From Saccoglossus kowalevskii (lineage: Eukaryota; Hemichordata; Enteropneusta; Harrimaniidae), in assembly GCF_000003605.2 (NCBI RefSeq), contig NW_003122837.1, positions 1-22,483 of the forward strand: a DNA stretch of 22,483 nucleotides, written 5' to 3'. Both the position numbers and the translations under genes were made by a program. The notes under the pieces were generated by a model. That model was given only the letters and a program-made list of their open reading frames with translations. It searched no databases and was not told where the DNA came from. Positions 1 to 22,483 of this stretch are shown here, piece after piece (position 1 is the first letter of the stretch; every line of letters starts with the position of its first letter).

Positions 1-1597
1 AAAGTAGACTTATATGCGTTGAAGTACCATCGCATATATCGCATATACTATTTGCACTGTGGCGTATTAATTTTGAAAACAATATAAATGAACAGATGTC
101 ACGATCTATAATAGTCCAATGCAATGCAAGTCATATTAATTTTCACATGTATAATGCAGAAAATAGTTGAAATGCTAACTTTGCTGTGTTTTCTTTTGCT
201 ATATTCTCGAACTGTAATTCTGTTCAAAGGTCCAGATGCTTTTGTACTCGCACTGGTGTCAAGCACTACTAAAATAATTTGCCACTCAGACAATTATACT
301 CTACAAACTCTTTAACACATTACAAATAATTATCATTTTTACACAACGAATATGCCAATAATTTCAGTTCAAATTGACGGTTCATCTCATTTTATTTTAC
401 AGGCATCACATACTATTGATAGAAATGATGATAGAAATACGTGAAGGTACAATAATTAATGGAGACGCAGCACGTATACTACTGTCTATAATAAATTGAT
501 TATATAATAATTAACATCTAACCCAGATTACATAAACTTTGTATCGGGGACAGTGTTAATTTATCCATGTCAATGTGACATCGTCGTTATTTATACTTTC
601 TCATATGTGCGGCGCAAACAAATTCACGAAAAACGAATTTCTTTTTATTAGCGACCTAATAGACGAATCTGGGCGTTAACACTTATACTAGTAACTAAAT
701 GTTCAGCTTCATTAGTGGATTTTAGCAATATGGTGCCCTCAGTAATCTACATAAACAAACTAAAATTACACCACATCACTGGATGGTGGATGGCGCTATA
801 CTAAATTATTCGATGAGTATAAATCTATTTGACAGCTTAACTAACTAAATAACCTTTTAGTTGTTGGGTTAATACTGTTGCAATTGTGCATATATGCTCA
901 TCCAAAAATAAGATTAGTGCTCCTCAGATCTGTGCGTGATGATGAGTTAGGTAAGTTTAAACCATAGAAACTATAAAGATTATGTTTATGAATTAACATG
1001 AATTACGAGTAGCTCCGCGTACAAAATATTCACATAACCAGGTTTTTTCAGTACATGTACAGTTAGATAGTGTAAGAATACTCATTGACAAAATATGCTT
1101 TACATTCTGCCTCATTTTTCATCTGTTTAGCATACTTGGAAGGCATTTGACCTTATACTTCGACCTTACACATCTTAACAGGGAAAGTTTTAATTATTGC
1201 GCATATTTCTATATTTCTATATATACTAGCTCAATCGCTGTCAAGCTCGTTACATATATCACTTCATCATCTCATCGTCTATGAGATACGAGAAATGTGT
1301 TATTCTCATAACAGAGAATTAGTATCTTTCCATTAAACATGGGGAATACACTCATTATCATTAACCAAATTAAGGAAAAGTTCCATTTATCGATCCATGG
1401 GACTGTCAATATCGGTCCTAGGTGTTAGTATATTTCATAACACAAAACGCTGAGGTCATGCAGTATCGCAAATGAAAGTCGATGAAAGAAAACTATTTTC
1501 TGAATTATCAAACAAACTATAGCCAATCGATAATATGTTTATCAGAGTGTAAATTGTGACAAAAACTATTGGTTTTATGATTTTCTCTATGTTTCTT

Positions 1598-1603
1598 TTT
1601 ATT
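1598..1603 (-). other. Possible poly(A) signal of the ARSB-like gene
   Basis: AATAAA on the minus strand, about 350 bases downstream of the TGA stop. No nearer AATAAA or ATTAAA occurs, so this is the first canonical candidate. Equivalents lie at 9313-9318 and 17032-17037. Unproven. Confidence 0.35.
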
Positions 1604-1778
1604 TATAATAACATCACTATAGGAACATCTGCTAACATCGTTACAATGATTAGTGTATTCTTGCATACATGCATACATTTGCATCAAAACAAGAACTTGT
1701 ATGTCGCCCTAAACGTTATTAGTCCAGTGGCAGATCACTGATATCACACACGTGTTTGAATCCATACCACCACCTCTA

Positions 1779-1790
1779 TGTGACGTCACA
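1779..1790. promoter_or_regulatory. CRE-type palindrome TGTGACGTCACA
   Basis: Perfect 12-bp palindrome containing TGACGTCA, the full CREB/ATF site, about 160 bases beyond the stop of the sulfatase gene. An ACACGTGT E-box-like palindrome lies about 30 bases further from the stop. Both are kept in units 2 and 3 (CRE at 9494-9505 and 17213-17224). Function is inferred from the motif alone. Confidence 0.4.
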
Positions 1791-1951
1791 ACTAGGTAAT
1801 AACGTGTCTACGTATATGGTAGTAAGAATCATTAGTATAATAACAATATAGCGATGTCGAATGTATGATGATTGCCTATTACGCTTGAAATAATACACTA
1901 ACAATAACAATCGACATAATAATGTTCAAGATTCACGTGTCTTGTGTCAAA

Positions 1952-2256
1952 TCAGCCCAGTTTTAAAAGGGCAATTTTTTTATACGCCGCTAGATCCCAT
2001 GGCGCCAGTATGTGGTTGGGCATGAGGAGCTCTGCTTCATCTTGATTGATTGAAGGCTCGTTCAGTACTGGTAACACTGTTGGTAGGTATTCCCCTAATT
2101 TCTTCAGGCACTGCAGTACTTTGTCTGTCCTCGAGTCGGCCAGATTATTCGATTCAGTTGGATCTTCAGCTAAGTTGTAAAGACGTACAATTCGATTATC
2201 GCTTTCGTAAACTGTATCGTGATCACTTTCTGGAGCAGCAAACCAAATTGCTGGAC
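1952..2256 (-). CDS. ARSB: ARSB-like copy 1, terminal coding exon E
   Basis: 305 bp, from acceptor CATCAG to a TGA stop at 1954-1952. It completes the Gly codon and continues [18 protein letters not shown]. It contains the typical sulfatase C-terminal signature [16 protein letters not shown], then a helix ([20 protein letters not shown]) and the end of the protein, [12 protein letters not shown]. The 101 residues fit the length of the last human exon region. An 81-codon ORF on the opposite strand (2050-2295) is a shadow of this exon. Confidence 0.9.
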
Positions 2257-4843
2257 CTGATGTTTAAACAGGGTAGGACATTTAAGTTAAATTAAGGATT
2301 AAACAGTAACCTCTAACGCATACAATGTAGTATACCTTTCAACAAATAAAGACAAAGACTAGTGTAACCATAGAAACCATATTCAAAATGCTAGCATTGT
2401 AAGCAATTAATTAATTAATGTAATCTGATGTAAATTTATAATATGCAAATATTAATATGCATTTAAATAAAATCGTATTTTATGAGCATTGCAACGCGTT
2501 ATTCACTAATTTAGATTTCATGACTGATCTATAATTTAGTATCAGGGCTGATACTGAAACAAGATATTTACACAGTATTTACCTTGGTGCCCTGTTAATA
2601 ACTTCCAATCACCAACACGAACTGCTGCCTTTATTCCCACATCGAAATACTCGTTTTCCGTCCAACGATCTTTTGTTTTTGCCTTGTTCATCAATGATTC
2701 TGGAACCAAGTTTATGAGTACATCGTCCCGCATAGATGGTTGGTTTTTGCTTTTACAAATGTAAATAAAATATTAGGCGTTATACATTATACACATCAGT
2801 AGTACAGTGCTCTTATAATGTTTTTGCTGTGGAAATTCAGCATTCGAGAAAAGTATTTTCACAAGTAGCTATTTCTCAAACAATCTAGGTCAGGGGGACA
2901 TTGAACAAAACGTTTAAATTACCTTATAGTATTCCATTGGTCCACACCGTACAAATCCATTGATTTAATTTCATTACTATCACCACCAGCCAAACTTACA
3001 AATGTAGGAAGCCAGTCGGTAACGTGAATAAGTTGATGATTTGATGACCCTCTGACACGATAGTCCAGTAGTGGACTCGTAACAAACCCCACACCTCTTA
3101 CACCTCCTTCCCACAGTGTTGCTTTGGCGCCTTTGAGAGGCCAGTTGTTACCACTTGCATGGGGACCGCCATTGTCTAAATCAATTACAGAGTTGGCTTA
3201 AGTAGCAGTCCTATATTAGTTTGTGGCGAAATATACTTCCTTAAAAACTTAACTTAGCAAGTTAACAATATAAATAGAGATAATCGGTAAAACAAAAACT
3301 TGCTGGCAGTGAAATTAGAAGCAAAAATTATCCACACGAAGAATTTCATTCGACCTTTACGTGTGCCTTTGTAACACAGATATTCAGTAAATTAATCTTC
3401 ACATACTGTTATTTATCGTAGCATAACGTGTGTTGCTTTATAAGAAAATATTAGTGTTTGGGGACTTGTTTTGGGATATGTTGCTATCAATTGAATACAC
3501 TTCTAAGTAAATATTTTTGTTTTCAGAATTAACCTTAATATATGTTGTGCTTTCTATATGTGGTAAATTATTGTCATTCACGTGTACTCACCTGTTGATA
3601 CGACCAAAACAGTATTGTTCCATAGACCAGATTGTTTTAATTGTTCAACTACGCTGCCTATAGCATCGTCCATACATGTAACCATGGCAGCATACACACG
3701 TCTATCTGGATCTGTTATATGGGAATACATGTCTATGTAACTGTCGGGTGCCTGTAGAGGCACATGGGCAGCTTGAAATGCCAAGTACATAAACATTGGC
3801 TGAAATATACAAGAGGGTAAAACCGGTTATGTAATTCATAGATCATGGCGTTTGAAGTATGACTGAGACGTCGTAATATAATATTTAATAATGTGTGTCA
3901 TATTTTGCAATGACATACTTCACTGGAAATTGTCATTGAAACAATAAATAATACCAGAGGTACATTACTTGGGGTTTGCAACGCGCATATAACTGTATGG
4001 TGACATCATGCCAAGATCCCATTCAAGTCTCATCTCGTAGCTAACGAGACTGAGGCTATGACCTTTTGACATGACATAGGCGGTTTGTAATAAAACAATA
4101 AAATATATATTACTACATTCATAGTGAAAAAATGTAATACATCGAAAATGTACAGAAAATATAGTTATCGTAATCCGTAGTATCGTGAGCAGCTATTTGA
4201 TCCACCTGGACATCCCAGTATCCTAGTTACCTCGGGCATGCGCATTCAAATTTTACTGAGTTGGAACGCTTATGCGAGAGCGAGATTGAAACGGGATCTT
4301 GGTACCATGTCACCGTAGTGTACCTCTGATAATACGTAATGACAACCAGCGGTCATATTATAGTGAATCATGAACAACATTATAATGCTCATTTTATGTT
4401 TGAATGAAAGACACACCAAATACAACGTTTAACTGATATGGGATCTGTTATTCTTGAATATGGTTGCAGACAGATTTACAGCGTATCATGTCAAAATATA
4501 AAGTGACATTGTTAGAACTCGACGAGACTAGATGATGATCATTTGTACCCGAACTAATCGCAAAATTCCAAAAATGATCAGTTCGTATATTTTCTTGCAT
4601 GGAACGCGGGGATGCCATATATTACTCAAAATAATATTGCTATTGAGTCAAGAGTGTCGATGATATAATATGACCTTACCTTGTCGGCATTGTGATTTGC
4701 TATGATTGTTCTTGCCTCCTTAGAATATAAATCGGTAGAATATTCCCCAACATATTCGTGTGCAATACTTTTATCATCTCTGTATAATTGCCACCACTCG
4801 TTATTCTCGTAAGTATAGTGGTCAGTTTCCCCTCCAATTATAC
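1952..4843 (-). CDS. ARSB: Arylsulfatase B-like gene, 5'-partial, copy 1
   Basis: Lysosomal-type sulfatase of the ARSB/ARSI/ARSJ group, which in animals removes 4-sulfate from GalNAc residues of dermatan and chondroitin sulfate. The coding exons in order are 4680-4843, 3592-3799, 2923-3175, 2583-2749 and 1952-2256 (1097 nt, 364 full codons before TGA plus one Gly codon shared with a missing upstream exon). All four introns are GT-AG with phases 0, 1, 2 and 1. From memory of human ARSB these match its junctions, except that human exons 6 and 7 are one exon here. The length fits human residues 167-533. Second-half active-site residues are present: His in FQAAHVPLQ, Asp-Asn in STDNGG and Lys in LKGAKATLW. 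The N-terminal half (DD pair, CxPSR cysteine converted to formylglycine, GKWHxG) was not found upstream. An in-frame ATG at 4907 could give a 386-residue truncated product if transcription began locally. Whether it is a working gene or an open pseudogene is undecided. Confidence 0.85.
2583..2749 (-). CDS. ARSB: ARSB-like copy 1, exon D (human exons 6+7 fused)
   Basis: 167 bp, from acceptor GTAAAAG to donor GTAAAT. It begins with the base completing a Ser codon (NTIS) and encodes 55 full residues. DDVLINLVP corresponds to the LLHNIDP segment, and [19 protein letters not shown] to the conserved AIRHGNWKLLTGYPG. Human ARSB splits this stretch between two exons. Here there is no intron, while the outer boundaries keep the same phases (2 and 1). 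Confidence 0.88.
2923..3175 (-). CDS. ARSB: ARSB-like copy 1, exon C (human exon 5 equivalent)
   Basis: 253 bp, from acceptor ATTTAG to donor GTAATT. Its first two bases complete the Asp codon of DNGG, the second-half metal-binding pair (human Asp300-Asn301). Then follow [17 protein letters not shown], holding the Lys that contacts the sulfate in human ARSB (Lys318), [12 protein letters not shown], and [17 protein letters not shown]. The exon has no internal methionine until near its end, so it is easily missed by ATG-based ORF calling. It is the most family-typical exon in the unit. Confidence 0.93.
3592..3799 (-). CDS. ARSB: ARSB-like copy 1, exon B (human exon 4 equivalent)
   Basis: 208 bp, the same length as I recall for human ARSB exon 4. 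It starts in phase 0 with CCA (Pro) after TATTTCAG and ends TCAACAG before the consensus donor GTGAGT. It encodes 69 residues. [18 protein letters not shown] includes the active-site His (human His242 equivalent). [15 protein letters not shown] is the usual MDEAVG helix, and [13 protein letters not shown] carries the conserved N-x-T glycosylation sequon. Confidence 0.92.
3955..4328. mobile_element. MITE-like DNA element in the ARSB-like intron, copy 1
   Basis: 374-bp insertion inside the 880-bp intron between exons A and B. Its ends are the inverted pair CAGAGGTACA and TGTACCTCTG. The 7 bases outside each end are the same direct repeat, ATAATAC (3948-3954 and 4329-4335), as expected for a target-site duplication. 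The inverted similarity continues inward: GGTGACATCATGCCAAGATC at 4000-4019 pairs with the reverse complement of the stretch near 4292-4311. The left arm has about 30 extra bases after CATTAC. No transposase ORF is present, so it is non-autonomous. The CAGRGG-type end suggests hAT, but hAT duplications are 8 bp; a TA-target reading (TA flanking CCAGAGG and CCTCTGA) also fits. Family left open. Confidence 0.8.
4680..4843 (-). CDS. ARSB: ARSB-like copy 1, exon A (human exon 3 equivalent)
   Basis: 164 bp, starting in phase 1 with the last two bases of a Gly codon after the acceptor TACAAAG, and ending on a full Lys codon before GTAAGG. The peptide runs from [11 protein letters not shown] to IIANHNADK. 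It aligns with the human segment from GYLLGSEDYYSH to LITNHPPEK and keeps the YST element ([12 protein letters not shown]). The acceptor is set where human ARSB has its intron, within the Gly codon of TYFG. The frame stays open upstream to an ATG at 4905-4907, but those 21 residues do not resemble the family, which has PTRRGFD there. Confidence 0.8.
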
Positions 4844-5247
4844 CTTTGTATAATGTACGAGATCTTATTGGTAAATACGACTTCAAAGGCGTTTTATGTG
4901 TATACATTTCATATCGCGATATTGACGGATTGCAAATAAGTGTGTTAATGTGTACTTTGAGATCCTACTTCAAATGATAATGGAGAGTTGTGATAGTTTC
5001 AGTTAGTGACTTCAATTACATGTGCATTTGTGCATCAATCGCTGTAGGGGTTGTGTACGAAGTCAGACTACAGCGGAGGACAACATATAGTGAACGTGTC
5101 GACTGTAGGAACCCTTGTCATGCACGCATTCAAATAGCATTACGTGACTGTATTTTGTACTTAAAATGCTTCTCGCACACACGTGCCACTAGCCTTGGAT
5201 CCAGCTATTCAGAGTGCCCCTCCCCATTGAACTCAAGAATAGCCTGG
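4844..5247. other. Upstream region of the ARSB-like exons
   Basis: The missing 5' exons would begin in this direction. On the minus strand the frame of exon A stays open back to a TAG near 4970 and includes an ATG at 4907-4905 with G at -3. Nothing resembling GKWHxG, PTRRGFD or CxPSR was found. The 86-codon plus-strand ORF (4990-5250) is not recognised. Confidence 0.5.
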
Positions 5248-5254
5248 TGAATCG

Positions 5255-5270
5255 CTACGTAAATACGTAG
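5255..5270. repeat. Short hairpin palindrome in left inverted-repeat arm
   Basis: CTACGTA-AA-TACGTAG has perfect 7-bp arms. The right arm has the 12-bp palindrome AACTACGTAGTT at 7521-7532, at a matching distance from its end. Both are repeated in unit 2 at offset 7719; in unit 3 only the left-arm hairpin lies within the window. Confidence 0.7.
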
Positions 5271-5560
5271 ACGACACACAATTCTGCGTCATAACTGATT
5301 GGTCGTTTCCAGGATTTCAGTACATTACTATGGAAACTCACACACGCAGTCTGATCCGTGCGTAAGACCCGCCCACAGCCCCCATGGTCGATTCACTAGT
5401 CTACCAGTTGTAGATTATTCTTGGTCTTAGGACATCTAGCCGAGCGAGCTAATTTTGCTATTCTTCTTCACATAGGCCAGTACCTCTCTGCAAAGGGCAG
5501 ACTGTTGTTGTCAATTACTTTTCTACACAGTCATTTTTTTTCAGTTGTTTCGCCTGAAAA

Positions 5561-5581
5561 CCCCCGACAAAAAGTAGGGGG
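5561..5581. repeat. G/C hairpin CCCCC...GGGGG
   Basis: Five Cs and five Gs separated by an 11-base A-rich loop (GACAAAAAGTA), in otherwise AT-rich DNA. It is kept in all units and has no assigned role. Confidence 0.6.
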
Positions 5582-6003
5582 AAAAGGTATGTGACAACCG
5601 AAATATTCCCGATTTCTGTAAATACGAATATTTTTTTTTGCGCAGACTTCGTGCTATTTTATTAAACTCTGCAAACAAACTTCCACTTACATATATAGCA
5701 GGCCAAGGGGAAAGAAACATTGATGACTAATTTACTAATACCTCCGTTTATCTTCTTTTCTGGTAAATATGTTTATACTTTTTTCGAATTCGATTCTCTG
5801 CGCTTAACAACAGAACACCAAGAATTATTCAGTTTATAAAGTTATTTAAATCTAACGCAAATCTTGCATATATTAATCTAATTAAGCAAACATTTTATTA
5901 AGATTTAGGACGTAAAACGTTTTATTAAACTGATTAAAGTAACTGGATGACTTGAATGTATCTGTGCTAACCGACAAGGATTTGTAGTTCGAACATATTC
6001 GAT

Positions 6004-6026
6004 ATGCAAATGAGTCGTATGCAAAT
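6004..6026 (+). promoter_or_regulatory. Paired POU octamer motifs
   Basis: Two ATGCAAAT octamers start 15 bases apart (6004-6011 and 6019-6026), inside the inverted-repeat-bounded segment. Both are intact in unit 2 (13722-13744). In unit 3 (21446-21468) the second reads TTGCAAAT. Octamers of this kind bind POU proteins, but chance occurrence in AT-rich DNA is possible. Confidence 0.3.
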
Positions 6027-6893
6027 CTGTTTTGTGTAGTGACGTTAAGTAACGCACATCGAACTGTTCAGGATACTATTTGACCGTTTTATGTTGGATG
6101 ATAACCGTGGAAACGATTGTGATGTACGTGCGCTAAAGTTAGTATTTCGTCGTTTTTTGTGGGTGCTGGCAATAAGACCAAAGACGATAGGCACAGAGGG
6201 TAGGCAAAAGTACTTGGGTCAGCCACAGTTCCAGTTACTCAGACTGGTACTTGCAGCGTCAAAGCGTCTAGCTCATGAACAGAAGCTCACTTTTTTGGAA
6301 ACGTTCGGGTGTGAGAGGCTTTCAACCTATTCTTCATAATAGAAGAGTTATTACACGTCTCCAACTGACAAATAGGAGTTCGGTATATAACACATGTGAC
6401 CATTTTTTTTTTCAATGTGCCTACGATTTTTGACTCGTACCTTGACTTTGGTAGCTTGGTACCTCACACTCATTACTGTTTTTTTACATCTGCCGTATTA
6501 AAAGTAAAACACTACTTTCCCATATGGTTAACTATTGTTGTGGCAGTATTAGATTTGCTCTTTACTTGTCCCATGCAAGTTCCTTCATTGGAGCATTAAG
6601 CAGTCTTCTAAAATTGGCATTGAGTCATCTTACTTGAATACTTGTATGCTAGTTGTGACCTAATTCATCACCATAAGTAACGTTGAATGATGGCTGTTAT
6701 TTGAGGTAGTGTATTTGTAATTCATATCTTTTGGACATGCGGGGGAAACATTTACTTGCAAGCGGCGCACATGAAGGTGTCCTTTTCGAACTCGGACTTG
6801 TCGAAAGGCACATTTTCTAATCTCTGGCTCGGATTCGAATTTCAGGTCTTCAAGTCATTCACCAACCCCAATTTAAAACCAAGATCACAATTA

Positions 6894-6930
6894 ATATCAT
6901 CATCATTATATCATCATATCATTATCTATG
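6894..6930. repeat. ATC-rich microsatellite-like tract
   Basis: Irregular run of ATC and TATC words. It is the same in unit 2. In unit 3 (about 22334-22370) two extra Ts are inserted, which may be sequence error near the contig end. Confidence 0.6.
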
Positions 6931-9666
6931 AAGTTAGACAATACACAATTGAAAGAAAATCTCACCAGTGCATCGCATGAACACTGAAATGCTGACTGTA
7001 GATTGACAAAAAGAATGAAGTGTATAAATTGCTACTCTTTTAGCATCGATGAGATTGTGTTCTGTGAATCCGAGTTTTGGAACGTTCCACATCGTGCGGG
7101 GCGTGATCACATTACTGCGACCTGACCGTGGAACCAACGAGACTGATGCTAATAATTACTGATGTTTACGGTCTATTTTCGTTTATTGACATATTGGATG
7201 GGCTACAATTGCGGTTCTAAATGTATTCATTCAAAGATATATTAAACTAAAATCCTTCACACAACAGTAAGGTACTGACTCGAACAACAAGGGTACCATG
7301 TGCATCACCATGAGTACGTTCGCGTCGCCACTTCTTCGACTAGATACCGTAATATTTTGAAAACAATCTACGAATAGTAGATGTTGCGCTGCCTAGTAAA
7401 TCGGTTTGGAGTGTTATGGGCGTGTTATTACGTATGTGGCAGTCTGTGAATGCGAGCTCCCATGGTAATGTACTGAAGTCATGAAGACAACCAATTAGTG
7501 AGGACACGGAATTCTGTGCAAACTACGTAGTTAAATAGCGATTCACGATATCATACTTGAGAATACTTCAAATGTCCGGATTTCAGGCTTTGTTTAATTT
7601 CTTTGTTTAGTTTCAAGCCGCATTTTAGATGGCTGTCCCATATAGTGAATGTTGTTGAATTAATCGCATTTATTTTTTCACCACTTGTACGCCAACTGAC
7701 TGTAAATTGATACACAAAAATAGACTTATATGCGTTGAAGTACCATCGCATATATCGCATATACTATTTGCACTGTGGCGTATTAATTTTGAAAACAATA
7801 TAAATGAACAGATGTCACGATCTATAATAGTCCAATGCAATGCAAGTCATATTAATTTTCACATGTATAATGCAGAAAATAGTTGAAATGCTAACTTTGC
7901 TGTGTTTTCTTTTGCTATATTCTCGAACTGTAATTCTGTTCAAAGGTTCAGATGCTTTTGTACTCGCACTGGTGTAAAGCACTACTAAAATAATTTGCCA
8001 CTCAGACAATTATACTCTACAAACTCTTTAACACATTACAAATAATTATCATTTTTACACAACGAATATGCCAATAATTTCAGTTCAAATTGACGGTTCA
8101 TCTCATTTTATTTTACAGGCATCACATACTATTGATAGAAATGATGATAGAAATACGTGAAGGTACAATAATTAATGGAGACGCAGCACGTATACTACTG
8201 TCTATAATAAATTGATTATATAATAATTAACATCTAACCCAGATTACATAAACTTTGTATCGGGGACAGTGTTAATTTATCCATGTCAATGTGACATCGT
8301 CGTTATTTATACTTTCTCATATGTGCGGCGCAAACAAATTCACGAAAAACGAATTTCTTTTTATTAGCGACCTAATAGACGAATCTGGGCGTTAACACTT
8401 ATACTAGTAACTAAATGTTCAGCTTCATTAGTGGATTTAAGCAATATGGTGCCCTCAGTAATCTACATAAACAAACTAAAATTACACCACATCACTGGAT
8501 GGTGGATGGCGCTATACTAAATTATTCGATGAGTATAAATCTATTTGACAGCTTAACTAACTAAATAACCTTTTAGTTGTTGGGTTAATACTGTTGCAAT
8601 TGTGCATATATGCTCGTCCAAAAATAAGATTAGTGCTCCTCAGATCTGTGCGTGATGATGAGTTAGGTAAGTTTAAACCATAGAAACTATAAAGATTATG
8701 TTTATGAATTAACATGAATTACGAGTAGCTCCGCGTACAAAATATTCACATAACCAGGTTTTTCAGTACATGTACAGTTAGATAGTGTAAGAATACTCAT
8801 TGACAAAATATGCTTTACATTCTGCCTCATTTTTCATCTGTTTAGCATACTTGGAAGGCATTTGACCTTATACTTCGACCTTACACATCTTAACAGGGAA
8901 AGTTTTAATTATTGCGCATATTTCTATATTTCTATATATACTAGCTCAATCGCTGTCAAGCTCGTTACATATATCACTTCATCATCTCATCGTCTATGAG
9001 ATACGAGAAATGTGTCATTTTCATAACAGAGAATTAGTATCTTTCCGTTAAACACGGGGAATACACTCATTATCATTAACCAAATTAAGGAAAAGTTCCA
9101 TTTATCGATCCATTGGACTGTCAATATCGGTCCTAGGTGTTAGTATATTTCATAACACAAAACGCTGAGGTCATGCAGTATCGCAAATGAAAGTCGATGA
9201 AAGAAAACTATTTTCTGAATTATCAAACAAACTATAGCCAATCGATAATATGTTTATCAGAGTGTAAATTGTGACAAAAACTATTGGTTTTATGATTTTC
9301 TCTATGTTTCTTTTTATTTATAATAACATCACTATAGGAACATCTGCTAACATCGTTACAATGATTAGTGTATTCTTGCATACATGCATACATTTGCATC
9401 AAAACAAGAACTTGTATGTCGCCCTAAACGTTATTAGTCCAGTGGCAGATCACTGATATCACACACGTGTTTGAATCCATACCACCACCTCTATGTGACG
9501 TCACAACTAGGTAATAGCGTGTCTACGTATATGGTAGTAAGAATCATTAGTATAATAACAATATAGCGATGTCGAATGTATGATGATTGCCTATTACGCT
9601 TGAAATAATACACTAACAATAACAATCGACATAATAATGTTCAAGATTCACGTGTCTTGTGTCAAA

Positions 9667-9971
9667 TCAGCCCAGTTTTAAAAGGGCAATTTTTTTATAC
9701 GCCGCTAGATCCCATGGCGCCAGTATGTGGTTGGGCATGAGGAGCTCTGCTTCATCTTGATTGATTGAAGGCTCGTTCAGTACTGGTAACACTGTTGGTA
9801 GGTATTCCCCTAATTTCTTCAGGCACTGCAGTACTTTGTCTGTCCTCGAGTCGGCCAGATTATTCGATTCAGTTGGATCTTCAGCTAAGTTGTAAAGACG
9901 TACAATTCGATTATCGCTTTCGTAAACTGTATCGTGATCACTTTCTGGAGCAGCAAACCAAATTGCTGGAC
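9667..9971 (-). CDS. ARSB: ARSB-like copy 2, terminal coding exon E
   Basis: 305 bp ending in TGA at 9669-9667, with the [13 protein letters not shown] signature. Identical to copy 1 by eye. Confidence 0.9.
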
Positions 9972-12562: not shown

Positions 12563-12966
12563 CTTTGTATAATGTACGAGATCTTATTGGTAAATACGAC
12601 TTCAAAGGCGTTTTATGTGTATACATTTCATATCGCGATATTGACGGATTGCAAATAAGTGTGTTAATGTGTACTTTGAGATCCTACTTCAAATGATAAT
12701 GGAGAGTTGTGATAGTTTCAGTTAGTGACTTCAATTACATGTGCATTTGTGCATCAATCGCTGTAGGGGTTGTGTACGAAGTCAGACTACAGCGGAGGAC
12801 AACATATAGTGAACGTGTCGACTGTAGGAACCCTTGTCATGCACGCATTCAAATAGCATTACGTGACTGTATTTTGTACTTAAAATGCTTCTCGCACACA
12901 CGTGCCACTAGCCTTGGATCCAGCTATTCAGAGTGCCCCTCCCCATTGAACTCAAGAATAGCCTGG

Positions 12967-15264
12967 TGAATCGCTACGTAAATACGTAGACGACACACAA
13001 TTCTGCGTCATAACTGATTGGTCGTTTCCAGGATTTCAGTACATTACTATGGAAACTCACACACGCAGTCTGATCCGTGCGTAAGACCCGCCCACAGCCC
13101 CCATGGTCGATTCACTAGTCTACCAGTTGTAGATTATTCTTGGTCTTAGGACATCTAGCCGAGCGAGCTAATTTTGCTATTCTTCTTCACATAGGCCAGT
13201 ACTTCTCTGCAAAGGGCAGACTGTTGTTGTCAATTACTTTTCTACACAGTCATTTTTTTTCAGTTGTTTCGCCTGAAAACCCCCGACAAAAAGTAGGGGG
13301 AAAAGGTATGTGACAACCGAAATATTCCCGATTTCTGTAAATACGAATATTTTTTTTGCGCAGACTTCGTGCTATTTTATTAAACTCTGCAAACAAACTT
13401 CCACTTACATATATAGCTGGCCAAGGGGAAAGAAACATTGATGACTAATTTACTAATACCTCCGTTTATCTTCTTTTCTGGTAAATATGTTTATACTTTT
13501 TTCGAATTCGATTCTCTGCGCTTAACAACAGAACACCAAGAATTATTCAGTTTATAAAGTTATTTAAATCTAACGCAAATCTTGCATATATTAATCTAAT
13601 TAAGCAAACATTTTATTAAGATTTAGGACGTAAAACGTTTTATTAAACTGATTAAAGTAACTGGATGACTTGAATGTATCTGTGCTAACCGACAAGGATT
13701 TGTAGTTCGAACATATTCGATATGCAAATGAGTCGTATGCAAATCTGTTTTGTGTAGTGACGTTAAGTAACGCACATCGAACTGTTCAGGATACTATTTG
13801 ACCGTTTTATGTTGGATGATAACCGTGGAAACGATTGTGATGTACGTGCGCTAAAGTTAGTATTTCGTCGTTTTTTGTGGGTGCTGGCAATAAGACCAAA
13901 GACGATAGGCACAGAGGGTAGGCAAAAGTACTTGGGTCAGCCACAGTTCCAGTTACTCAGACTGGTACTTGCAGCGTCAAAGCGTCTAGCTCATGAACAG
14001 AAGCTCACTTTTTTGGAAACGTTCGGGTGTGAGAGGCTTTCAACCTATTCTTCATAATAGAAGAGTTATTACACGTCTCCAACTGACAAATAGGAGTTCG
14101 GTATATAACACATGTGACCATTTTTTTTTTTCAATGTGCCTACGATTTTTGACTCGTACCTTGACTTTGGTAGCTTGGTACCTCACACTCATTACTGTTT
14201 TTTTACATCTGCCGTATTAAAAGTAAAACACTACTTTCCCATATGGTTAACTATTGTTGAGGCAGTATTAGATTTGCTCTTTACTTGTCCCATGCAAGTT
14301 CCTTCATTGGAGCATTAAGCAGTCTTCTAAAATTGGCATTGAGACATCTTACTTGAATACTTGTATGCTAGTTGTGACCTAATTCATCACCATAAGTAAC
14401 GTTGAATGATGGCTGTTATTTGAGGTAGTGTATTTGTAATTCATATCTTTTGGACATGCGGGGGAAACATTTACTTGCAAGCGGCGCACATGAAGGTGTC
14501 CTTTTCGAACTCGGACTTGTCGAAAGGCACATTTTCTAATCTCTGGCTCGGATTCGAATTTCAGGTCTTCAAGTCATTCACCAACCCCAATTTAAAACCA
14601 AGATCACAATTAATATCATCATCATTATATCATCATATCATTATCTATGAAGTTAGACAATACACAATTGAAAGAAAATCTCACCAGTGCATCGCATGAA
14701 CACTGAAATGCTGACTGTAGATTGACAAAAAGAATGAAGTGTATAAATTGCTACTCTTTTAGCATCGATGAGATTGTGTTCTGTGAATCCGAGTTTTGGA
14801 ACGTTCCACATCGTGCGGGGCGTGATCACATTACTGCGACCTGACCGTGGAACCAACGAGACTGATGCTAATAATTACTGATGTTTACGGTCTATTTTCG
14901 TTTATTGACATATTGGATGGGCTACAATTGCGGTTCTAAATGTATTCATTCAAAGATATATTAAACTAAAATCCTTCACACAACAGTAAGGTACTGACTC
15001 GAACAACAAGGGTACCATGTGCATCACCATGAGTACGTTCGCGTCGCCACTTCTTCGACTAGATACCGTAATATTTTGAAAACAATCTACGAATAGTAGA
15101 TGTTGCGCTGCCTAGTAAATCGGTTTGGAGTGTTATGGGCGTGTTATTACGTATGTGGCAGTCTGTGAATGCGAGCTCCCATGGTAATGTACTGAAGTCA
15201 TGAAGACAACCAATTAGTGAGGACACGGAATTCTGTGCAAACTACGTAGTTAAATAGCGATTCA
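12967..15264. mobile_element. Inverted-repeat-bounded segment, unit 2
   Basis: Same segment as in unit 1, with outer TGAATCGCT at 12967 and AGCGATTCA ending at 15264. The interior differs from unit 1 mainly in homopolymer lengths and a few substitutions. Confidence 0.55.
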
Positions 15265-17385
15265 CGATATCATACTTGAGAATACTTCAAATGTCCGGAT
15301 TTCAGGCTTTGTTTAATTTCTTTGTTTAGTTTCAAGCCGCATTCTAGATGGCTGTCCCATATAGTGAATGTTGTTGAATTAATCGCATTTATTTTTCCAC
15401 CACTTGTACGCCAACTGACTGTAAATTGATACACAAAAGTAGACTTATATGCGTTGAAGTACCATCGCATATATCGCATATACTATTTGCACTGTGGCGT
15501 ATTAATTTTGAAAACAATATAAATGAACAGATGTCACGATCTATAATAGTCCAATGCAATGCAAGTCATATTAATTTTCACATGTATAATGCAGAAAATA
15601 GTTGAAATGCTAACTTTGCTGTGTTTTCTTTTGCTATATTCTCGAACTGTAATTCTGTTCAAAGGTCCAGATGCTTTTGTACTCGCACTGGTGTAAAGCA
15701 CTACTAAAATAATTTGCCACTCAGACAATTATACTTTACAAACTCTTTAACACATTACAAATAATTATCATTTTTACACAACGAATATGCCAATAATTTC
15801 AGTTCAAATTGACGGTTCATCTCATTTTATTTTACAGGCATCACATACTATTGATAGAAATGATGATAGAAATACGTGAAGGTACAATAATTAATGGAGA
15901 CGCAGCACGTATACTACTGTCTATAATAAATTGATTATATAATAATTAACATCTAACCCAGATTACATAAACTTTGTATCGGGGACAGTGTTAATTTATC
16001 CATGTCAATGTGACATCGTCGTTATTTATACTTTCTCATATGTGCGGCGCAAACAAATTCACGAAAAACGAATTTCTTTTTATTAGCGACCTAATAGACG
16101 AATCTAGGCGTTAACACTTATACTAGTAACTAAATGTTCAGCTTCATTAGTGGATTTTAGCAATATGGTGCCCTCAGTAATCTACATAAACAAACTAAAA
16201 TTACACCACATCACTGGATGGTGGATGGCGCTATACTAAATTATTCGATGAGTATAAATCTATTTGACAGCTTAACTAACTAAATAACCTTTTAGTTGTT
16301 GGGTTAATACTGTTGCAATTGTGCATATATGCTCATCCAAAAATAAGATTAGTGCTCCTCAGATCTGTGCGTGATGATGAGTTAGGTAAGTTTAAACCAT
16401 AGAAACTATAAAGATTATGTTTATGAATTAACATGAATTACGAGTAGCTCCGCGTACAAAATATTCACATAACCAGGTTTTTCAGTACATGTACAGTTAG
16501 ATAGTGTAAGAATACTCATTGACAAAATATGCTTTACATTCTGCCTCATTTTTCATCTGTTTAGCATACTTGGAAGGCATTTGACCTTATACTTCGACCT
16601 TACACATCTTAACAGGGAAAGTTTTAATTATTGCGCATATTTCTATATTTCTATATATACTAGCTCAATCGCTGTCAAGCTCGTTACATATATCACTTCA
16701 TCATCTCATCGTCTATGAGATACGAGAAATGTGTTATTCTCATAACAGAGAATTAGTATCTTTCCGTTAAACATGGGGAATACACTCATTATCATTAACC
16801 AAATTAAGGAAAAGTTCCATTTATCGATCCATGGGACTGTCAATATCGGTCCTAGGTGTTAGTATATTTCATGACACAAAACGCTGAGGTCATGCAGTAT
16901 CGCAAATGAAAGTCGATGAAAGAAAACTATTTTCTGAATTATCAAACAAACTATAGCCAATCGATAATATGTTTATCAGAGTGTAAATTGTGACAAAAAC
17001 TATTGGTTTTATGATTTTCTCTATGTTTCTTTTTATTTATAATAACATCACTATAGGAACATCTGCTAACATCGTTACAATGATTAGTGTATTCTTGCAT
17101 ACATGCATACATTTGCATCAAAACAAGAACTTGTATGTCGCCCTAAACGTTATTAGTCCAGTGGCAGATCACTGATATCACACACGTGTTTGAATCCATA
17201 CCACCACCTCTATGTGACGTCACAACTAGGTAATAACGTGTCTACGTATATGGTAGTAAGAATCATTAGTATAATAACAATATAGCGATGTCGAATGTAT
17301 GATGATTGCCTATTACGCTTGAAATAATACACTAACAATAACAATCGACATAATAATGTTCAAGATTCACGTGTCTTGTGTCAAA

Positions 17386-17690
17386 TCAGCCCAGTTTTAA
17401 AAGGGCAATTTTTTTATACGCCGCTAGATCCCATGGCGCCAGTATGTGGTTGGGCATGAGGAGCTCTGCTTCATCTTGATTGATTGAAGGCTCGTTCAGT
17501 ACTGGTAACACTGTTGGTAGGTATTCCCCTAATTTCTTCAGGCACTGCAGTACTTTGTCTGTCCTCGAGTCGGCCAGATTATTCGATTCAGTTGGATCTT
17601 CAGCTAAGTTGTAAAGACGTACAATTCGATTATCGCTTTCGTAAACTGTATCGTGATCACTTTCTGGAGCAGCGAACCAAATTGCTGGAC
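17386..17690 (-). CDS. ARSB: ARSB-like copy 3, terminal coding exon E
   Basis: 305 bp ending in TGA at 17388-17386. One silent change in the first Phe codon after the acceptor (IWFAAP); otherwise the same as the other copies. Confidence 0.9.
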
Positions 17691-20287
17691 CTGATGTTTA
17701 AACAGGGTGGGACATTTAAGTTAAATTAAGGATTAAACAGTAACCTCTAACGCATAAATTGTATTATACCTTTCAACAAATAAAGACAAAGACTAGTGTA
17801 ACCATAGAAACCATATTCAAAATGCTAGCATTGTAAGCAATTAATTAATTAATGTAATCTGATGTAAATTTATAATATGCAAATATTAATATGCATTTAA
17901 ATAAAATCGTATTTTATGAGCATTGCAACGCGTTATTCACTAATTTAGTTTTAGATTTCATGACTGATCTATAATTTAGTATCAGGGCTGATACTGAAAC
18001 AAGATATTTACACAGTATTTACCTTGGTGCCCTGTTAATAACTTCCAATCACCAACACGAACTGCTGCCTTTATTCCCACATCGAAATACTCGTTTTCCG
18101 TCCAACGATCTTTTGTTTTTGCCTTGTTCATCAATGATTCTGGAACCAAGTTTATGAGTACATCGTCCCGCATAGATGGTTGGTTTTTGCTTTTACAAAT
18201 GTAAATAAAATATTAGGCGTTATACATTATACACATCAGTAGTACAGTGCTCTTATAATGTTTTTGCTGTGGAAATTCAGCATTCGAGAAAAGTATTTTC
18301 ACAAGTAGCTATTTCTCAAACAATCTAGGTCAGGGGGACATTGAACAAAACGTTTAAATTACCTTATAGTATTCCATTGGTCCACACCGTACAAATCCAT
18401 TGATTTAATTTCATTACTATCACCACCAGCCAAACTTACAAATGTAGGAAGCCAGTCGGTAACGTGAATAAGTTGATGATTTGATGACCCTCTGACACGA
18501 TTGTCCAGTAGTGGACTCGTAACAAACCCCACACCTCTTACACCTCCTTCCCACAGTGTTGCTTTGGCGCCTTTGAGAGGCCAGTTGTTACCACTTGCAT
18601 GGGGACCGCCATTGTCTAAATCAATTACAGAGTTGGCTTAAGTAGCAGTCCTATATTAGTATGTGGCGAAATATACTTCCTTAAATACTTAACTTAGCAA
18701 GTTAACAATATAAATAGAGATAATCGGTAAAACAAAAACTTGCTGGCAGTGAAATTAGAAGCAAAAATTATCCACACGAAGAATTTCATTCGACCTTTAC
18801 GTGTGTCTTTGTAACACAGATATTCAGTAAATTAATCTTCACATACTGTTATTTATCTTAGCATAAAATGTGTTGCTTTATAAGAAAATATTAGTGTTTG
18901 GGGACTTGTTTTGGGATATGTTGCTATCAATTGAATACACTTCTAAGTAAATATTTTTTGTTTTCAGAATTAACCTTAATAATATATGTTGTGCTTTCTA
19001 TATGTGGTAAATTATTGTCATTCACGAGTACTCACCTGTTGATACGACCAAAACAGTATTGTTCCATAGACCAGATTGTTTTAATTGTTCAACTACGCTG
19101 CCTATAGCATCGTCCATACATGTAACCATGGCAGCATACACACGTCTATCTGGATCTGTTATATGGGAATACATGTCTATGTAACTGTCGGGTGCCTGTA
19201 GAGGCACATGGGCAGCTTGAAATGCCAAGTACATAAACATTGGCTGAAATATACAAGAGGGTAAAACAGGTTATGTAATTCATAGATCATGGCGTTTGAA
19301 GTATGACTGAGACGTCGTAATATAATATTTAATAATGTGTGTCATATTTTGTAATGACATACTTCACTGGAAATTGTCATTGAAACAATAAATAATACCA
19401 GAGGTACATTACTTGGGGTTTGCAACGCGCATATAACTGTATGGTGACATCATGCCAAGATCCCATTCAAGTCTCATCTCGTAGCTAACGAGACTGAGGC
19501 TATGACCTTTTGACATGACATAGGCGGTTTGTAATAAAACAATAAAATATATATTACTACATTCATAGTGAAAAAATGTAATACATCGAAAATGTACAGA
19601 AAATATAGTTATCGTAATCCGTAGTATCGTGAGCAGCTATTTGATCCACCTGGACATCCCAGTATCCTAGTTACCTCGGGCATGCGCATTCAAATTTTAC
19701 TGAGTTGGAACGCTTATGCGAGAGCGAGATTGAAACGGGATCTTGGTACCATGTCACCGTAGTGTACCTCTGATAATACGTAATGACAACCAGCGGTCAT
19801 ATTATAGTGAATCATGAACAACATTATAATGCTCATTTTATGTTTGAATGAAAGACACACCAAATACAACGTTTAACTGATATGGGATCTGTTATTCTTG
19901 AATATGGTTGCAGACAGATTTACAGCATATCATGTCAAAATATATAGTGACATTGTTAGAACTCGACGAGACTAGATGATGATCATTTGTACCCGAACTA
20001 ATCGCAAAATTCCAAAAATGATCAGTTCGTATATTTTCTTGCATGGAACGCGGGGATGCCATATATTACTCAAAATAATATTGCTATTGAGTCAAGAGTG
20101 TCGATGATATAATATGACCTTACCTTGTCGGCATTGTGATTTGCTATGATTGTTCTTGCCTCCTTAGAATATAAATCGGTAGAATATTCCCCAACATATT
20201 CGTGTGCAATACTTTTATCATCTCTGTATAATTGCCACCACTCGTTATTCTCGTAAGTATAGTGGTCAGTTTCCCCTCCAATTATAC
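17386..20287 (-). CDS. ARSB: Arylsulfatase B-like gene, 5'-partial, copy 3
   Basis: Exons at 20124-20287, 19036-19243, 18363-18615, 18023-18189 and 17386-17690. All splice sites and the stop are kept. Two exonic changes separate it from copies 1 and 2: Tyr to Asn in exon C (LLDNRV) and a silent TTT to TTC Phe codon in exon E. Its introns are the most diverged of the three, with substitutions and small insertions around 18661-18985. As in the other copies, no exons for the CxPSR or GKWHxG parts are visible between this copy and the window end. Confidence 0.85.
18023..18189 (-). CDS. ARSB: ARSB-like copy 3, exon D
   Basis: 167 bp, identical in peptide to copies 1 and 2, with the same acceptor GTAAAAG and donor GTAAAT. 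Confidence 0.88.
18363..18615 (-). CDS. ARSB: ARSB-like copy 3, exon C (Tyr to Asn)
   Basis: 253 bp with DNGG, the catalytic Lys region and LWEGGVR intact. It has a single amino-acid change relative to copies 1 and 2: TAT to AAT in the LLDYRV loop (plus-strand change near 18502). That loop is variable in the family, so the change is probably mild. Confidence 0.92.
19036..19243 (-). CDS. ARSB: ARSB-like copy 3, exon B
   Basis: 208 bp, coding sequence unchanged. One base changed just inside the downstream intron (CGAGTACTCAC on the plus strand), leaving the donor GTGAGT intact. Confidence 0.92.
19399..19772. mobile_element. MITE-like element, copy 3
   Basis: Same insertion, with intact CAGAGGTACA and TGTACCTCTG ends and ATAATAC flanks (19392-19398 and 19773-19779). 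Confidence 0.8.
20124..20287 (-). CDS. ARSB: ARSB-like copy 3, exon A
   Basis: 164 bp with the same peptide and splice sites as copies 1 and 2. The in-frame upstream ATG lies at 20349-20351. Confidence 0.8.
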
Positions 20288-20691
20288 CTTTGTATAATGT
20301 ACGAGATCTTATTGGTAAATACGACTTCAAAGGCGTTTTATGTGTATACATTTCATATCGCGATATTGACGGATTGCAAATAAGTGTGTTAATGTGTACT
20401 TTGAGATCCTACTTCAAATGATAATGGAGAGTTGTGATAGTTTCAGTTAGTGACTTCAATTACATGTGCATTTGTGCATCAATCGCTGTAGGGGTTGTGT
20501 ACGAAGTCAGACTACAGCGGAGGACAACATATAGTGAACGTGTCGACTGTAGGAACCCTTGTCATGCACGCATTCAAATAGCATTACGTGACTGTATTTT
20601 GTACTTAAAATGCTTCTCGCACACACGTGCCACTAGCCTTGGATCCAGCTATCCAGAGTGCCCCTCCCCATTGAACTCAAGAATAGCCTGG

Positions 20692-22483
20692 TGAATCGCT
20701 ACGTAAATACGTAGACGACACACAATTCTGCGTCATAACTGATTGGTCGTTTCCAGGATTTCAGTACATTACTATGGAAACTCACACACGCAGTCTGATC
20801 CGTGCGTAAGACCCGCCCACAGCCCCCATGGTCGATTCACTAGTCTACCAGTTGTAGATTATTCTTGGTCTTAGGACATCTAGCCGAGCGAGCTAATTTT
20901 GCTATTCTTCTTCACATAGGCCAGTACCTCTCTGCAAAGGGCAGACTGTTGTTGTCAATTACTTTTCTACACAGTCATTTTTTTCAGTTGTTTCGCCTGA
21001 AAACCCCCGACAAAAAGTAGGGGGAAAAGGTATGTGACAACCGAAATATTCCCGATTTCTGTAAATACGAATATTTTTTTTGCGCAGACTTCGTGCTATT
21101 TTATTAAACTCTGCAAACAAACTTCCACTTACATATATAGCTGGCCAAGGGGAAAGAAACATTGATGACTAATTTACTAATACCTCCGTTTATCTTCTTT
21201 TCTGGTAAATATGTTTATACTTTTTTCGAATTCGATTCTCTGCGCTTAACAACAGAACACCAAGAATTATTCAGTTTATAAAGTTATTTAAATCTAACGC
21301 AAATCTTGCATATATTAATCTAATTAAGCAAACATTTTATTAAGATTTAGGACGTAAAACGTTTTATTAAACTGATTAAAGTAACTGGATGACTTGAATG
21401 TATCTGTGCTAACCGACAAGGATTTGTAGTTCGAACATATTCGATATGCAAATGAGACGTTTGCAAATTTGTTTTGTGTAGTGACGTTAAGTAACGCACA
21501 TCGAACTGTTCAGGATACTATTTGACCGTTTTATGTTGGATGATAACCGTGGAAACGATTGTGATGTACGTGCGCTAAAGTTAGTATTTCGTCGTTTTTT
21601 GTGGGTGCTGGCAATAAGACCAAAGACGATAGGCACAGAGGGTAGGCAAAAGTACTTGGGTCAGCCACAGTTCCAGTTACTCAGACTGGTACTTGCAGCG
21701 TCAAAGCGTCTAGCTCATGAACAGAAGCTCACTTTTTTGGAAACGTTCGGGTGTGAGAGGCTTTCAACCTATTCTTCATAATAGAAGAGTTATTACACGT
21801 CTCCAACTGACAAATAGGAGTTCGGTATATAACACATGTGACCATTTTTTTTTTCAATGTGCCTACGATTTTTGACTCGTACCTTGACTTTGGTAGCTTG
21901 GTACCTCACACTCATTACTGTTTTTTTACATCTGCCGTATTAAAAGTAAAACACTACTTTCCCATATGGTTAACTATTGTTGAGGCAGTATTAGATTTGC
22001 TCTTTACTTGTCCCATGCAAGTTCCTTCATTGGAGCATTAAGCAGTCTTCTAAAATTGGCATTGAGTCATCTTACTTGAATACTTGTATGCTAGTTGTGA
22101 CCTAATTCATCACCATAAGTAACGTTGAATGATGGCTGTTATTTGAGGTAGTGTATTTGTAATTCATATCTTTTGGACATGCGGGGGAAACATTTACTTG
22201 CAAGCGGCGCACATGAAGGTGTCCTTTTCGAACTCGGACTTGTCGAAAGGCACATTTTCTAATCTCTGGCTCGGATTCGAATTTCAGGTCTTCAAGTCAT
22301 TCACCAACCCCAATTTAAAACCAAGATCACAATTAATATCATCATCATTATATCATTCATATCATTTATCTATGAAGTTAGACAATACACAATTGAAAGA
22401 AAATCTCACCAGTGCATCGCATGAACACTGAATGCTGACTGTAGATTGACAAAAGAATGAGTGTATAAATTGCTACTCTTTTA
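20692..22483. mobile_element. Inverted-repeat-bounded segment, unit 3 (right arm outside window)
   Basis: The left arm starts at 20692 and the segment is cut by the window end before its right arm. The interior has private changes, including the second octamer-like site and the one-base indels in the last ~130 bases. Confidence 0.5.

Follow-up and report, generated by a model that had tools for sequence, protein, structure and literature searches.

In macrosatellites such as D4Z4 and RS447, each unit contains a complete reading frame. The locus that we describe here, from the hemichordate Saccoglossus kowalevskii, resembles them in unit size, head-to-tail order, high identity, and gene content, but its units carry the 3' half of a gene instead of a whole frame. 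Partial gene duplicates are common, and Table 2 of PMC3449122 lists one in a tandem array (eelpout AFPIII, from sialic acid synthase). As in the tandem partial duplicates described there, our units are incomplete copies of one ancestral gene, with both exons and introns. However, the copies at our locus lack the 5' half, seem to lie beside their source, and give no sign of a new function. As far as we know, the nearest structural analogue would be the kringle IV-2 (KIV-2) repeat of human LPA. As described in PMC7613587 and PMC11462820, KIV-2 units are also multi-kilobase (about 5.5 kb), bear exons, and are arranged head to tail within one gene. But KIV-2 units are internal to their gene and code in series, while every unit here includes a stop codon (the TGA in exon 7) and the end of the gene, so the units cannot be read in series as in a coding intragenic VNTR of the LPA type. 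The locus looks like a kind of structure that is already known: a partial gene duplication in a macrosatellite-like tandem array. Among the best-ranked titles in the literature, none pointed to arylsulfatase B in tandem or to a comparable macro-array of partial copies.

The window (the whole stretch of DNA that we analyzed, with 22,483 bases) is the entire contig C1543, from an assembly that has 4830 contigs and totals 572,110,611 bases. It consists only of three head-to-tail units of 7716, 7719, and at least 7048 bp (Table 1). In self-BLAST, positions 1–14761 are 99.40% identical to 7717–22483, and positions 1–7042 are 99.35% identical to 15436–22483. Head-to-tail units of more than 1 kb (here, 7.7 kb) with such high identity characterize a macrosatellite or large tandem array. 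A first-pass annotation of this DNA had described units of these sizes at about 99% identity, and a window that is all array with no unique flank; our comparison confirms both. In the orientation of the gene, the unit starts midway along intron 2 (unit position 333), includes exons 3–7 and the stop codon, and ends 1.6 kb beyond the stop (position 334). The breakpoint is the same at all three junctions in the window and falls between AAAAATG and ATAATT.

The units are not clones of each other: across unit positions 1–6950, there are 45 substitutions and 10 indel events between them, and the pairwise substitution divergences are 0.33%, 0.40%, and 0.56%. The last ~60 bases of the window contain three single-base losses in short homopolymers, which are probably errors at the end of the contig, so our variant counts omit the last 98 positions of unit 3. 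The window contains no short tandem repeats with a period of up to 500, and neither Rfam (at the gathering score) nor ARAGORN (with the bacterial code) found RNA genes. We also considered and rejected a phage or plasmid origin, as unit 1 matched none of 50,697 phage records or 72,556 plasmid records. Among viral contigs, there was no exact match for two patterns of 26 and 27 bases and no relative of the protein.

Table 1. Features of the array, its gene, and its inserted elements. Positions are in the window unless contig C1355 is named.
Feature	Position	Strand	Evidence
Array unit 1 (phase of the first-pass annotation)	1..7716	.	self-BLAST and unit alignment
Array unit 2	7717..15435	.	self-BLAST and unit alignment
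Array unit 3, cut by contig end at unit position 7048	15436..22483	.	self-BLAST and unit alignment
Duplication junction, unit end/unit start (gene orientation)	333..334	-	junction comparison
Duplication junction, identical to 333..334	8049..8050	-	junction comparison
Duplication junction, identical breakpoint, one substitution further into the unit	15768..15769	-	junction comparison
Exon 1, carries CTPTR	C1355 269,642-269,893	as unit exons	N-terminal profile
Exon 2, carries GKWHLG	C1355 270,438-270,624	as unit exons	N-terminal profile
Exon 3, unit 1	4680..4843	-	C-terminal profile and splice sites
Exon 4, unit 1	3592..3799	-	C-terminal profile and splice sites
Exon 5, unit 1	2923..3175	-	C-terminal profile and splice sites
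Exon 6, unit 1	2583..2749	-	C-terminal profile and splice sites
Exon 7 with TGA stop, unit 1	1952..2256	-	C-terminal profile and splice sites
Exon 3, unit 2	12399..12562	-	C-terminal profile and splice sites
Exon 4, unit 2	11311..11518	-	C-terminal profile and splice sites
Exon 5, unit 2	10642..10894	-	C-terminal profile and splice sites
Exon 6, unit 2	10302..10468	-	C-terminal profile and splice sites
Exon 7 with stop, unit 2	9667..9971	-	C-terminal profile and splice sites
Exon 3, unit 3	20124..20287	-	C-terminal profile and splice sites
Exon 4, unit 3	19036..19243	-	C-terminal profile and splice sites
Exon 5, unit 3	18363..18615	-	splice sites and translation comparison
Exon 6, unit 3	18023..18189	-	C-terminal profile and splice sites
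Exon 7 with stop, unit 3	17386..17690	-	C-terminal profile and splice sites
MITE-like inverted-repeat element in intron 3, ends CAGAGGTAC, flanked on both sides by ATAATAC	3955..4328	.	letters and family search
Left inverted arm of possible old element, intron 2	5227..5443	+	inverted-repeat comparison
Right inverted arm of the 5227-7571 stretch	7336..7571	-	inverted-repeat comparison
217-bp dispersed repeat within the 5227-7571 stretch	5851..6067	.	mostly 77-82% identical to genome copies

Each unit carries five intact exons (exons 3–7, with a TGA stop) of an arylsulfatase-B-like gene on the minus strand, in agreement with the multi-exon piece of a sulfatase gene in the first-pass annotation. 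Acceptors are AG and donors are GT at every exon in all three units. The sole amino acid difference among the three translations is a change from Y to N in exon 5 of unit 3. The best relative with a solved structure is human N-acetylgalactosamine-4-sulfatase (ARSB; 1fsu, E = 3.7e-77), and exons 3–7 alone match positions 128–300 of the 301 in Pfam's Sulfatase profile. On the minus strand at 4844–4964, no stop interrupts the reading frame as it continues from exon 3 into the intron, and an in-frame ATG there might conceivably serve as the start of a truncated protein.

The units lack exons 1–2. We built profiles for the N-terminal and C-terminal parts of sulfatases from bacterial relatives (22 proteins were found; rows with 40 or fewer residues in the relevant part were dropped). 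Against 1039 six-frame pieces of the window, the N-terminal profile found nothing better than E = 3.2, while the C-terminal profile detected exons 3–7 in every unit (with E = 0.034 for exon 6, the weakest). As a positive control, the N-terminal profile found exon 1 (E = 1e-28) and exon 2 (E = 2e-14) on another contig, C1355. A motif scan of unit 1 and its neighbor found no GKWHLG and no C-x-P-x-R in the context of a sulfatase. Judged by the C-x-P-x-R formylglycine motif and the DD and GKWHLG residues, no unit encodes an active sulfatase. When the ten active-site residues of ARSB, as given in PMC6272068, are placed by alignment to 1fsu, six of them belong to the absent part (D53, D54, C91, R95, K145, and H147), and the formylglycine cysteine is among the active-site residues in exons 1–2. 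(To number the active-site residues, 41 is added to the 1fsu chain number; at the modified Cys91, the PDB record has A.) With exons 3–7 only, and with the profile control positive in the flank, each unit contains just part of the ancestral reading frame, as expected for a partial gene duplicate. On their exon content, the orphan 3' halves would be unable to encode an active enzyme alone.

Contig C1355 (273,771 bases) is probably the edge of the array. A search of the same assembly matched window positions 1–333 to this contig at 100% identity. C1355 has non-array DNA up to 271,086 and then sharply enters the unit at position 333. From this junction, it runs from unit position 333 to 1 and then from 7716 down to 4821, and it ends inside exon 3, before exons 4–7. 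The unit starts here just as it does at window 333..334, but it is preceded by other, non-array DNA: the flank-to-unit and unit-to-unit junctions have the unit start in common and differ in the sequence before the breakpoint. Together with this one, the window's three junctions bring the assembled unit starts to at least four. The array's downstream flank was absent among the 17 scored candidates of the own-assembly search.

Exons 1–2 lie on C1355, 0.5–1.4 kb before the flank-to-unit junction. Spliced to exons 3–7 of unit 1, they form a model of 1536 bases that encodes 511 amino acids with no internal stop; the phases fit, and all introns are GT-AG. Once exons 1–2 are added, the score against human ARSB (1fsu) rises from 263 to 424 bits, and coverage of Pfam's Sulfatase profile grows from 128–300 to 1–300 of 301. 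In the alignment to 1fsu, read by eye, active-site residues are present at 10 of 10 places, and by these residues (as listed in PMC6272068) the whole gene model is an ARSB-like sulfatase. Near-identical exons 1–2 were found once in the assembly, on C1355, and no second near-identical copy of the region was found among the 40 candidates scored of 172. (The intron 2 part of this query also matches dispersed repeats.) The best-scoring other nucleotide matches to exons 1 and 2, among the same 40 of 172 candidates, are 78% and 87% identical, on contig C10. Since only one near-identical copy was found among these candidates, a second haplotype of the locus, which we had considered, is not apparent. 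The presence of exons 1–2, in phase, beside the flank-to-unit junction points to a single ancestral source for the partial duplicates, given the link between C1355 and the window that we infer from the unit sequence they share; the two contigs would be one locus.

Over the same stretch, the edge unit on C1355 differs from the array units by 1.2–1.3%, while the array units differ among themselves by 0.28%. An edge unit that is more divergent, with interior units that are alike, is expected if the interior units are homogenized. The edge unit also lacks 507 bp that are found in the array units. Alternatively, the divergence and the gap could reflect another haplotype or a second locus. Farther from the junction, at ~259.8–262.9 kb of C1355 (~6.7 kb before exon 1), there is a 3-kb minisatellite with a 21-bp unit, ~145 copies, and 73% matches.

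We propose, with good confidence, that the window comes from the interior of a tandem array, which arose as the 3' half of one arylsulfatase-B-like gene was duplicated repeatedly, and that exons 1–2 of this gene are at the C1355 edge. The first duplication would have joined intron 2 to a point 1.6 kb downstream of the stop. The copy number would then have risen by unequal exchange, and gene conversion would have kept the units alike. Exons 1–2 would be spliced to exons 3–7 of one unit, most likely the nearest. The product would be one ordinary lysosomal or secreted sulfatase, and the remaining units would be orphan 3' halves. No unit shows exons 1–2, and the one near-identical copy that was found seems to lie beside the array; by itself, the repeat number would alter the count of 3' halves and not of complete genes. 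To judge from the gene structure, repeat number alone should not change the dose of the enzyme. The first-pass annotation had suggested that the array can change gene dosage; this does not fit with units that lack exons 1–2, or with near-identical exons 1–2 that were found only outside the array, on C1355 (40 of 172 candidates scored). The lesson is that a gene-like array can be misread as extra dose: the exons are intact, and the catalytic half is absent from the units and seemingly present once, at the edge.

The differences between units bear on how they have evolved. Variants are clustered (22 neighbor pairs within 60 bp versus 14.3 expected, P = 0.003), and variants from the same unit are adjacent more often than by chance (23 of 44 versus 16.9 expected, P = 0.03). 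Private substitutions are uneven across units (6, 17, and 22; P = 0.011), and a simple clock does not fit. The clustering and the uneven counts fit exchange between units but do not prove it. At gap-free sites across positions 4821–7048, the edge unit has 28 changes that none of the array units shares. Sharing conflicts at two sites: the edge unit agrees with unit 1 alone at site 260 and with unit 3 alone at site 5209. Because they are shared with the edge unit, these changes are not truly private to units 1 or 3, and they weakly support exchange.

We also considered that the array might be an assembly artefact, with a region of one or two copies, or two haplotypes, strung into a false concatemer. 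The contig lies wholly within the repeat, has no flank, and has probable errors at its end; and unit 1 has few private changes, as in a collapsed consensus. However, the three units have private substitutions and indels of 3 and 6 bp, which excludes the looping of one sequence. Furthermore, a single-copy locus is not expected to yield the unit-to-unit junction three times, and the boundary on C1355 is different. A second contig carries an edge unit, and nothing points to a second haplotype, as one near-identical copy of exons 1–2 was found among 40 scored of 172 candidates. We consider an artefact unlikely.

Exons vary less between units than introns do, which is a moderate hint of constraint. 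Of the 55 variant events at unit positions 1–6950, 2 are in exons (1097 bp; 1.8 per kb), 25 are in the gene's introns (1795 bp; 13.9 per kb), and 28 are elsewhere in the unit (4058 bp; 6.9 per kb). Fisher's test, which ignores the clustering of variants, gives P = 0.0005 for exons versus introns and P = 0.0085 for exons versus all non-coding positions. Sliding the exon pattern around the unit gives P = 0.12 for substitutions and P = 0.04 for all events. One of the two exon changes is silent, there are no indels in exons, and the splice sites are intact in all three units. If the depletion in exons is real, then most of the differences are true changes and not random sequencing error. The conservation of exons exceeds what is predicted for wholly dead copies, and it counts against the view that most units are orphan tails.

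These data would suit a gene with one promoter and many tails, in which exons 1–2 can be spliced to exons 3–7 of any unit, all of the units are used, and selection maintains the exons of every unit. Repeat number would then tune transcript ends or splicing, not dosage. If downstream tails are used, then the locus would provide a natural experiment on how several redundant 3' halves are handled by one gene, and on whether exons in copies that have no promoter are visible to selection. But the sliding test gives less significance than Fisher's test, and the units are young, so that inheritance from a functional copy, or conversion with it, would look alike. Also, one would usually expect the nearest acceptor to be the one that is spliced. 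We think that the use of many tails is quite unlikely, and we prefer the proposal that exons 1–2 are joined to one unit.

Rolling-circle transposition or an extrachromosomal circle could also give head-to-tail multimers with the exons and introns of a gene fragment. Helitrons have CTRR at their 3' ends. But the boundary of the unit is not CTRR followed by T, and a scan for CTRR with a hairpin found just two weak sites, neither of them at the boundary. Furthermore, the fragment lies in register beside its own exons 1–2, which dispersal would not give. Helitrons do capture gene fragments (PMC4778049), but such an origin, or a circle, seems very unlikely here. Finally, we reject as barely credible the amplification of a working sulfatase gene with raised enzyme output: although the exons are intact in all units, exons 1–2 (with 6 of the 10 active-site residues) are in no unit by the N-terminal profile and were found once, beside the array, among 40 scored of 172 candidates.

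Two transposon-like insertions per unit had also been reported, and we can confirm one of them. The element in intron 3 (374 bp) has 37 dispersed relatives at 91–94% identity among 40 scored of 482 first-look candidates. These matches cover about 3955–4319, and some start slightly earlier. Its position is unchanged in the other two units, with offsets of +3 (unit 2) and +9 (unit 3). Three copies of this MITE-like family lie within 5.4 kb on contig C4490 (scored matches). The other stretch, at about 5227–7571, has two inverted arms of over 200 bp each, but none of the 40 hits that were scored, of 481 candidates, showed the arms outside this contig, and we describe the stretch as a possible old element. 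Positions 5276–5782, within this stretch, are absent from the edge unit on C1355. Both inserted stretches are at the same place in every unit of the window, which implies that they were inserted before the amplification.

The spliced model aligns to human ARSB (1fsu) from residue 23 to 474 of 511. Human ARSB has 8 exons and our model has 7; presumably, a single exon here is the counterpart of human exons 6 and 7. The intron positions can be compared at Ser381 of human ARSB, whose codon is split after the second base by intron 5 (c.1142_1143), as reported in PMC12267954. In our model, the exon 5/6 boundary is at the aligned serine and in the same phase.

Outside the window, exon 5 has protein-level relatives at 21 places, with 38–69% identity (112 of 135 candidates scored; two of the matches are only partial). 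These places point to an expanded ARSB-like family in this genome. In 9 of the 21, the matched stretch contains stop codons. On contigs C201 and C3824, which carry paralogs and do not stand in for outgroup species, the exons found are in single copies. In the C10 paralog, exons 1, 2, and 7 are readable; part of the stretch is N, so we conclude nothing from its missing exons. On contig C480, two exon-7-like pieces of sulfatases (4101–4367 and 7216–7482, 3.1 kb apart, and both 45% identical to the query) are perhaps another local duplication.
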